Below, one piece after another: positions 24,550 through 26,935 of a stretch of DNA of 64,000 bases. Where the stretch lies: assembly GCA_020628865.1 (NCBI GenBank), contig JAHDEJ010000020.1, positions 26,900-90,899 of the forward strand, given 5' to 3'. Numbering within the stretch: the stretch's first letter is position 1; every line of letters starts with the position of its first letter. Origin of the DNA: Acidimicrobiales bacterium (GTDB lineage: Bacteria > Actinomycetota > Acidimicrobiia > Acidimicrobiales > SHLQ01). A program made the position numbers and the translations under genes. The notes under the pieces are model-generated. The model saw nothing but the letters and a program-made list of their open reading frames with translations. It searched no databases and had not been told where the DNA came from.

Positions 24550-25266
24550 TCACCCGAGTGCGTCGATTCGCTCCTGGAGGGCCGAGCCGGAGAGTGACGA
24601 CGTGGTCGAGATTTCACCGGAGTCGTCGATGAAGGCGAACGCCGGCTGGTAGCTGATGCCGTACCGGGCCCAGATGGCACCGCTCTCGTCGTTGATGTTC
24701 GGAAAGATCCCGACTCCCGTCCGGTCGATGAACTCCTGCATCGCCGACTCGGAGTCTCGGGCTGCGACGCCGATGATCTGCACCTGGGGGTTGTCTTGCT
24801 GCGCCTGTGCGACCGCACCGGCTTCTCGGAGACAGTTCGGTCACCACGGCGCCCAGAACCAGAGCACGGTGTCCTGACCCTCGAGAGAGTTCAGGTCGAG
24901 CTGGCCACCCCCGACGAGCGAGACGTTGTCTGCTGGAGCCGACGCCTCGGTGGTCGACGTCGCCTCCGCCGTGGTTGTTGGAGCAGCGGTGGTCGTCGCT
25001 GCCGGCTGCTCGGTCGTCGAACCGGTGTCGGCATCCCCGTCGGCCAGATCGTCCGTCGCTGCGTCAGCGGCGACGGGCGCCGTTGTCGGTGCGGTGGTCG
25101 TGGCTTCTCCGGGTGCCTCGGTGGCGGCCGTTTCATCCACTGGGGCCGATGCCGCCGGAATCGTCGTCGTGGCTTCGGCCAGCGTGGTGGACGAACCTTC
25201 GCCTCCGCAGGCGGCGAGGAAGAGGAGCGCGGCGCAGGCAGCACGCCGTGGTCGAGACAACGTCAC
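24550..25266 (-). CDS. Thioredoxin-like (TlpA/redoxin) lipoprotein with in-frame TGA at the catalytic Cys
   Basis: The predicted 238-aa surface thiol-oxidoreductase starts with a signal peptide and lipobox (LLFLAAC-GG, Cys at 20). A long Thr/Ala/Glu/Asp linker (about 24-115) and a TlpA-like thioredoxin domain follow. The domain runs VLWFWAPW, then TGA (24843 to 24841), then PNCLREAGAVAQAQ, IIGVAARDSE, and the cis-Pro loop ISYQPAFAFIDDSG. The frame is intact on both sides, and the TGA stands exactly where the first Cys of WCxxC belongs. Two readings are possible: selenocysteine (W-U-P-N-C), or a nonsense mutation or sequencing error. A small hairpin with a G-starting loop lies 18 nt downstream (24822-24812), weak as a bSECIS. 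GTG at 25266 gives a normal signal peptide; GTG at 25299 is an alternative. It lies downstream of the sortase gene. Confidence 0.75.
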
Positions 25267-25339: not shown

Positions 25340-26128
25340 TCACACCGCGACGGGGACCGCGATGACCACGACATTGTCGTCGTAGCTGCGCAGCGACGGA
25401 TTGAACGATCCGCCGCAGGTGATGAGCACCAGGCGCTCATCCCCGTCTTCCCGGAACAGATCCTCGATCGGCAGCGCTTCCTTCGTGTACTGGATCACCT
25501 CGGTGACCTCGTAGGCAAGGGTCGAGCCCTCGTGGTCCACGGTGAAGACCTGACCCGCCTGCATCTGGTCGAGGTTCCGGAACACGCCATCGACGCCGTT
25601 GTAGGCGATGTGACCGGCCAGGACGGTCGAGCCCCGTCCACCGCCGATTCCGGCACCGAACTGGTACCAACCGATCGCTTCCGCCCCGGGGACTTCGAGC
25701 TCGCCGTTGTCCTCGATACCGACGGGCTCGATCGCTGCGTTCTGCACGTCGAGATCCGGGATCTCCATCGACAGTGGGCGGAATCCGAGCGGCTCGCCGA
25801 CGCCGACGAGTGCTTCCTCCGGAAGCGCCGACCCGAGTGGTTCGACGATCGAGGCGAGCGGGCTGCGATCGCTCGCCGTCGATGTCGCATCGTCCGGATC
25901 CTCCGGGATCAGGACGTCGGCCGTGACATTCGACGAGCTCGACGGCTCTTCGTTTGCCTCGGCCTCGGAGGGCTCGTCGATCACGGTCGACTCGGGCTCC
26001 GGAACGTCTTCTCCCCCGGCTGCAGCGGGGACGGAAGACGAAGAGCCGTCCTCCCCGAGCTGAGCAACGAACCATGCGATGCTCAACCCGAGGAGGAACG
26101 GAATCGCCCAGAGGGCGTACTTCTTCAT
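25340..26128 (-). CDS. Class F-type sortase
   Basis: Sortases covalently attach or assemble surface proteins outside the membrane. The 262-aa protein has an N-terminal transmembrane anchor (residues 5-23), a Ser/Glu/Asp/Pro-rich linker to about 115, then the sortase barrel. The catalytic triad is visible: His173 in VLAGHIAYNG, Cys238 in LVLITCGG and Arg247 in NPSLRSYDDN. The compact domain starting near LSMEIPDLDV and the TCGG context fit class F, common in actinobacteria. It follows the DUF4397 surface-protein gene by 18 bp on the same strand, its probable substrate. The thioredoxin-like gene follows after 73 bp. Confidence 0.9.
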   Translation of the reverse strand: MKKYALWAIPFLLGLSIAWFVAQLGEDGSSSSVPAAAGGEDVPEPESTVIDEPSEAEANEEPSSSSNVTADVLIPEDPDDATSTASDRSPLASIVEPLGSALPEEALVGVGEPLGFRPLSMEIPDLDVQNAAIEPVGIEDNGELEVPGAEAIGWYQFGAGIGGGRGSTVLAGHIAYNGVDGVFRNLDQMQAGQVFTVDHEGSTLAYEVTEVIQYTKEALPIEDLFREDGDERLVLITCGGSFNPSLRSYDDNVVVIAVPVAV

Positions 26129-26146: not shown

Positions 26147-26935
26147 TCAGCGGGTTCCGGCGAGGGTGCGACGGCCACCGAGGGCGACCAGGACCATGAG
26201 TCCGCCGACGAGGGCGGCGACCGGGAAGCTGCTGTTCGAGACCGGGCTGTTGCCGGTGTTCACGACGTCGGGAAGGGCGCCCAGGCCGTCGATGACCTCG
26301 GTGAGCACGGTCAGGTTGCCAGCGTCGAGCGAGCCGACGGCGTAGACGATGAGCGAGGAGCCCTCGGCGACGGGGAGATCGGCCGGACCGATGACGACGG
26401 GCTCGGTGGCGCCGGTCGGGACGACCTCAGCGCTGATGGTTCCGGCCGGGAGGTCAGCGCCACCACCGGCGCCGTTCGGCACGTTGGTGAACGCTGCGGC
26501 ACCGTTGGCGAGGATGTCGACGGCGGGAGCGGCTGCGGTGTGGCGGACCACGAGACGGCCGTTACCGGCGGCGATTTCCGAGATGTCGTTCTCGAACACA
26601 CCGACCGTCGGGGCGCCGTCGGCGTCGAGGTGGGCGATCACGGTGTAGTTGCCGCTGGCGGGAACGTCGAAGTCGCCAACGTCGATGGCGACGGTGTCGG
26701 TGCCGGCAAGCACGACCTGCAGGCTGTCGAGGGTCTGGCCGGCGAAGCCGGAGAGGTCCTGGGTGTCGCCGAAGGAGAAGTCTTCGATGACGGCAGCGCC
26801 GCCAACGGTGACGTCAACATCGGTGTCGGGGATGCCGTGGATCAGGTGGATGCGAGCTGCATCCTGAGCGCCGGCGGCTGAGGGCAGCAGCACGGACACC
26901 ACGAGGGTGAGCAGCAAGGCAAGACGAAATTTCAT
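26147..26935 (-). CDS. DUF4397 surface protein, probable sortase substrate
   Basis: The 262-aa exported protein has a signal peptide with a probable cut after SAAGA (about residue 23). A DUF4397 domain follows (ARIHLIHGIPDTDVDVTVGG..., then repeated beta-strand segments such as NYTVIAHLDADG and RLVVRHTAAAPAVDIL). The C-terminus has a cell-wall-sorting layout: LPDVVNTGNS, a hydrophobic span (FPVAALVGGLMVLVALGG) and a basic tail RRTLAGTR. The motif is not canonical LPXTG; VVNTG or LPDVVNTG is the candidate recognition site. The adjacent class F sortase supports this. ATG at 26935 has AGGAG about 7 nt upstream. Confidence 0.9.
   Translation of the reverse strand: MKFRLALLLTLVVSVLLPSAAGAQDAARIHLIHGIPDTDVDVTVGGAAVIEDFSFGDTQDLSGFAGQTLDSLQVVLAGTDTVAIDVGDFDVPASGNYTVIAHLDADGAPTVGVFENDISEIAAGNGRLVVRHTAAAPAVDILANGAAAFTNVPNGAGGGADLPAGTISAEVVPTGATEPVVIGPADLPVAEGSSLIVYAVGSLDAGNLTVLTEVIDGLGALPDVVNTGNSPVSNSSFPVAALVGGLMVLVALGGRRTLAGTR

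Follow-up and report, generated by a model that had tools for sequence, protein, structure and literature searches.

A predicted lipid-anchored selenoprotein of the DsbF/DsbE branch in an Acidimicrobiales bacterium

An in-frame TGA at positions 24843-24841 on the minus strand of the window (the whole stretch of 64,000 nucleotides of Acidimicrobiales DNA that was analysed) is, judged from the codon and its context, almost certainly read as selenocysteine (Sec). The gene that contains it very probably encodes a lipid-anchored, extracytoplasmic selenoprotein of the DsbF/DsbE branch, in which Sec would take the place of the attacking Cys and UGA would be decoded through tRNA-Sec, SelB and a bSECIS hairpin. 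The sequence, the Sec machinery of the genome and selection support the recoding, the thioredoxin fold and the topology of a lipoprotein; the substrates, the redox partner and the net direction of electron flow we infer. The features of the gene are as follows.

24550..25266, minus strand: gene for the putative Sec-containing DsbF/TlpA-like lipoprotein (translation, thioredoxin-fold matches, orthologues).
25207..25266, minus strand: signal peptide ending in the lipobox F-L-A-A-C (direct reading; the paralogues likewise have lipoboxes, LAAC, AAAC and AGAC).
24930..25206, minus strand: Thr/Ala-rich stalk from the lipid anchor to the thioredoxin domain (direct reading).
24553..24933, minus strand: thioredoxin-fold domain (AlphaFold2 model, structure matches).
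24841..24843, minus strand: UGA almost certainly read as Sec, residue 142, first position of UPNC (TGA conservation in the genus, Cys in distant homologues, Sec machinery).
24832..24834, minus strand: resolving Cys145 (TGT) of UPNC (TGA at the same place in UxxU paralogues).
24643..24645, minus strand: cis-Pro208 of the thioredoxin fold, YQPAF (alignment column P97, conserved in at least 90% of rows).

In the read-through translation, the gene starts with GTG at 25266, ends with TGA at 24552-24550 and yields a lipoprotein of 238 residues with Sec as residue 142. The TGA at 24843-24841 is the sole internal stop of the frame 25266-24550 (minus strand) and falls at the catalytic-Cys position, within the motif VLWFWAPW-U-PNC; Cys20 of the lipobox FLAAC is the predicted lipidation site. 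The AhpC-TSA model (PF00578) matches the read-through protein across the TGA with 51.9 bits, against a gathering cut-off of 26, and the Redoxin and Thioredoxin models also match it and span the TGA. Both the translation and the PF00578 match agree with the initial annotation, which had described a lipobox, a linker and a TlpA-like fold in one frame broken only by this codon.

An AlphaFold2 model, run with Cys in place of Sec, contained a thioredoxin-fold domain with a mean pLDDT of 95.7. Its best match among solved structures is Mycobacterium tuberculosis DsbF (Rv1677, PDB 3IOS; TM-score 0.95, 39% identity), followed by M. tuberculosis DsbE/MPT53 (Rv2878c, PDB 1LU4; TM-score 0.91, 38% identity), and a profile search of the PDB returned DsbF (3ios) at E 7.5e-45 and DsbE at E 2.1e-37. 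These extracytoplasmic proteins resemble the window protein in sequence and fold over the whole domain, but have Cys at the first active-site position, where the window protein would have Sec (WFWAPWCPTC in DsbF aligned with WFWAPWUPNC). Because the codon for the first Cys is UGA and a CxxC is lacking, we describe the protein as a Sec relative and not as a DsbF. ResA of Bacillus, StoA, TlpA and CcmG/DsbE, which are CcdA-fed reductases, have in common with it a membrane-anchored thioredoxin fold with a WCxxC-type site, but structure alignments give an identity of only about 22-24%; ResA, with about 23%, is the next solved structure after DsbF and DsbE. The NCBIfam model for ResA (NF002854) gave 53.8 bits against a cut-off of 170, and the NCBIfam DsbE model scored far under its cut-off. 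Pneumococcal Etrx1 and Etrx2 (PDB 4HQS, 2YP6), which are also CcdA-fed, are likewise surface-exposed lipoprotein thioredoxin domains; they differ in being Cys enzymes of about 20% identity.

Thioredoxin-fold families with curated Sec are also on record. Two of them, NF041054 (the ResA-like WAxxUGC selenoprotein; 31.9 bits against a cut-off of 300) and NF053656 (the TUGYCR selenoprotein; 16 bits against a cut-off of 100), differ from the window protein in motif. A further predicted selenoprotein family is the 'Prx-like thiol:disulfide oxidoreductase' with PF00578 and UxxC or UxxU (PMC13188914, PMC9312934, PMC1794560). Its members in Geobacter, Syntrophus and others share their Pfam domain and Sec motifs with the window protein, and both motif types occur here, UPNC in the window protein and UPFU in its paralogues. 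Placed by domain and motif, as in the published work, the window gene is a predicted Sec member of this kind. The listed hosts, however, are mostly anaerobic Deltaproteobacteria and Clostridia, whereas the present case is a DsbF-type lipoprotein of an actinobacterium whose genome encodes subunit I of a haem-copper oxidase.

The codon itself was compared in homologues from 147 related genomes, in which genes with one TGA occur throughout the genus and also, beyond its own family, in numerous families of the order. All genus orthologues recovered have TGA at codon 142 (the syntenic ones are 98-58% identical), and distant homologues aligned at this codon have either TGA or TGC/TGT, with WFWAPWCPNC or CPTC in Pseudonocardiaceae, Mycobacterium and Demequina; no homologue examined has TAA or TAG in frame. 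In a sample of 296 genomes from across the phylum, a threshold of E 1e-20 gave homologues in 52; outside the order, a single TGA also occurs in many of the top matches, counted here by presence and not by codon position. The fragmentation of the source assembly into 113 contigs could point to a sequencing error or a decaying pseudogene, in which case the protein would be an ordinary Cys enzyme or dead. However, other species, whose genomes were assembled separately, keep the same TGA at 98-44% identity and without other stops, and there is purifying selection past it: over the 95 codons after the UGA, comparison with the orthologue in genome G008 gave a pN of 0.009 and a pS of 0.262. We consider an error or a pseudogene extremely improbable. 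The codons after the UGA are thus under purifying selection as protein, which implies that the C-terminal domain is translated. Only TGA or Cys at the codon, and no stops elsewhere, is also the pattern for which the initial annotation had proposed to look; its selenoprotein reading gains support from these codons, from the recurrence of the TGA in independent assemblies and from the machinery of the genome.

The source genome (5.36 Mb in 113 contigs, 96% complete, 3% estimated contamination) contains selA (379.7 bits, C64:96468) and, directly after it, selB (280.7 bits, C64:97607), together with selD (359 bits, C106:117069-117992, locus L125) and a gene for tRNA-Sec with the anticodon UCA (65.1 bits, C13:11299-11390). 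Absence of the Sec machinery, one of the observations named at the outset as speaking against a selenoprotein, thus does not apply, with the caveat that selA/selB, selC and selD are spread over different contigs of the assembly. The adjacent selA and selB pair spans C64:96468-98671 (L001/L013), with selC and selD on other contigs, and SelD is itself a selenoprotein candidate, having its own in-frame TGA in GAGUGC. Of the 10 further genomes in the genus, 9 also have a selA match. Where a TGA-bearing homologue is listed, selA is present in 57 of 58 genomes, compared with 9 of 18 for which only Cys homologues are listed (Fisher p = 3e-6, an optimistic value that is indicative only, because the genomes are related and not statistically independent). 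The lone TGA-bearing genome without a selA match, G009, is 73% complete.

In a tree built on 122 columns, in which many forks are unresolved, the window gene falls into a clade made up of nine rows, all Sec and all from the genus (support 98/91). The paralogues in which both redox positions are TGA (WFWAPWUPFU) form a single clade (support 100/99). These UxxU paralogues include L122 (G000:C105:80428, in the source genome), L077, L078 and L079, and L079 comprises two copies in tandem, ~790 bases apart. Nested among the Sec rows are the Cys proteins of genomes G020, G023, G061, G137 and G142; such nested Cys homologues, all of the same order, are L036, L038, L039, L044 and L052. A selA match is missing from four of the five genomes of this group, which fits a loss of Sec and suggests that the nested Cys homologues may have arisen by Sec-to-Cys reversion along with loss of the trait.

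The codons that follow the UGA also contain a candidate signal for its decoding.

24803..24822, minus strand: bSECIS hairpin of 7 pairs with a GGUC apical loop at 24814-24811 (covariation, RNAalifold, absence from Cys homologues).

A gap-free comparison of 36 Sec genes, covering 45 bases counted from the UGA, gave the conserved hairpin GCC-g-GUGC[GGUC]GCAC-a-GGC, with a one-by-one mismatch. The loop is near-invariant among the Sec genes and lies at a fixed distance, with its first base 29 nt downstream from the U of UGA. A hairpin directly 3' of the UGA with G/GU in its apical loop is what is expected of a bSECIS element, and this one agrees; GGUC is also the tetraloop of the Escherichia coli fdhF element. 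Among 32 distinct aligned sequences, pairing is found in 97.3% of cells and both sides have changed in four of the seven pairs, and pairing falls to 18-55% once the partner is slid by one to three bases. RNAalifold, unaided, predicts the same hairpin. The hairpin is absent from the Cys homologues, in which the loops read GATC, CGTC, GCTG and so on. Moreover, the loop with six or more pairs is observed in 34 of the 36 Sec genes, against 2.4 expected under reshuffling of synonymous codons. For the window gene alone, a match arises by synonymous chance in ~2% of reshuffles, so the word 'weak' that the initial annotation used is fair for the hairpin in isolation; it is the family alignment, and not any one gene, that makes the hairpin compelling. 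The hairpin first proposed, GCCG-GUG-CGGU, had the correct start, 18 nt after the TGA, and the wrong register; with the homologues aligned, the conserved structure is no longer a weak candidate. A scan of the window for GGUC hairpins after in-frame TGAs found seven, of which six were judged to be chance occurrences because only the one at 24843 is backed by a homologous protein. A bSECIS model gave a shortened match of 20.1 bits at 29717-29690 (minus strand), antisense to a gene for a LuxR-type regulator, which is probably also due to chance.

If UGA were a sense codon here, through a genome-wide change of code or a suppressor, the frame would be open as well, and the residue inserted could be Trp or Cys; Cys is indeed the residue of the homologues. 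However, each of the nine neighbouring genes that were checked has TGA as its stop codon (9/9). UGA therefore normally terminates translation in this organism and is not generally recoded, and an alternative genetic code was rejected. The full Sec machinery, the bSECIS hairpin and the dependence on selA point to Sec, and a Trp or Cys reading is very improbable. That UGA is a stop by default, and that the 141 codons ahead of it encode signal, lipobox and stalk, would also suit a selenium-dependent switch acting in addition to Sec insertion, with low selenium giving a lipid-anchored stalk of 141 residues that lacks the enzyme domain. A switch of this type, in which any function of the truncated form would be hypothetical, is an unlikely addition to the insertion of Sec.

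Two genes lie upstream of the lipoprotein gene on the same strand.

25340-26128, minus strand: sortase.
26147-26935, minus strand: DUF4397 protein.

The initial annotation had described the lipoprotein as lying next to a sortase and its substrate, which implies a link. Comparison of synteny in the genus places the sortase and DUF4397 genes beside the lipoprotein gene only in the source genome and the near-identical G008; the neighbours that are conserved are a convergent PhyH gene and ABC permeases. As the lipoprotein gene lies away from the sortase in other members of the genus, the link is not supported, and a sortase-linked surface system was rejected.

The predicted product would belong to the actinobacterial DsbF/DsbE (TlpA/ResA-like) branch as a lipid-anchored thiol-disulfide oxidoreductase, with Sec in place of the attacking Cys of the WCxxC site. 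tRNA-Sec and SelB would decode the UGA, guided by the bSECIS hairpin in the next codons. Disulfides or oxidized thiols of exported proteins may exchange, at the surface of the membrane, with the selenolate of Sec142 or with a selenylsulfide between Sec142 and Cys145, and this pair would most likely be reset through the genome's single CcdA/DsbD-type membrane protein. One such CcdA/DsbD_TM protein (C108:19627) was found in the source genome, where its neighbour is a Cys-type AhpC-TSA protein (C108:19009); a search for a VKOR partner found none. Sec as the first residue generally favours the role of a reducing nucleophile. Because CcdA is present and VKOR was not found, our preferred reading is that a CcdA-type protein recharges this surface selenol/thiol oxidoreductase, with reduction as the more probable net direction. 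The closest relatives by sequence and fold suggest the opposite direction: Mt-DsbE and Mt-DsbF support oxidative folding of hirudin in vitro and leave insulin unreduced, and the membrane partner proposed for them is either Rv2877c or a protein of the DsbD type (PMC3853704). By analogy, the window protein could make disulfides in exported proteins, with Sec speeding the exchange. The CcdA/DsbD-type channel, the VKOR-type oxidant not found in the source genome and the Sec nucleophile argue against net oxidation, which is nevertheless a plausible, if less probable, physiological direction.

The source genome contains six further DsbF/TlpA-like Sec genes, on contigs C24, C94, C105 (UxxU), C106, C2 and C79. 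Two more divergent TlpA-like Sec lipoproteins are L124 (G000:C2:203252), with WFWSPHUPTC, and L014 (G000:C79:~100817), with WFWGAHUGTC. In addition, TGA occupies the redox position of four AhpC-TSA proteins, L169 (C44), L171 (C42), L173 (C80) and L178 (C42), the motifs of this set being TPGUT and TPLUT (peroxiredoxin type), DWUPYC and APYUGC. A few searches thus yielded at least 12 candidate Sec genes, among them seven DsbF/TlpA-like Sec lipoproteins that, from their sequences, would face outside.

Selenoproteins of this general kind are already known. NCBIfam has no model of its own for the actinobacterial lipoprotein branch, and its Sec-specific thioredoxin-fold models all reject the window protein. 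Neither selenoproteins in Acidimicrobiia nor this branch were described in the literature searched (subscription papers lay outside it), in which only incidental papers were found. The lineage and the protein branch, an actinobacterial Sec lipoprotein, therefore seem to be undescribed. Standard gene calling would end the lipoprotein at the UGA and lose the enzyme domain, and would do the same to at least 10 further Sec genes in the source genome. According to a recent review, aerobic bacteria rarely retain selenoproteins (PMC13188914); the source genome has at least 12 candidate Sec genes and also encodes a haem-copper oxidase. We see an even chance that an expanded extracytoplasmic network of selenoproteins, apparently not yet described, operates in Actinomycetota, also in Acidimicrobiales that have a respiratory oxidase: each genome would encode several DsbF-type Sec lipoproteins, double-Sec UxxU forms among them, as well as several Sec peroxiredoxin-like proteins. 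If true, such a network would contradict the rarity of selenoproteins in aerobic bacteria and would define a surface selenol relay. Because a single protein family brings Sec, Cys and UxxU forms close to one another, the benefit of Sec at an extracytoplasmic active site can be tested directly.
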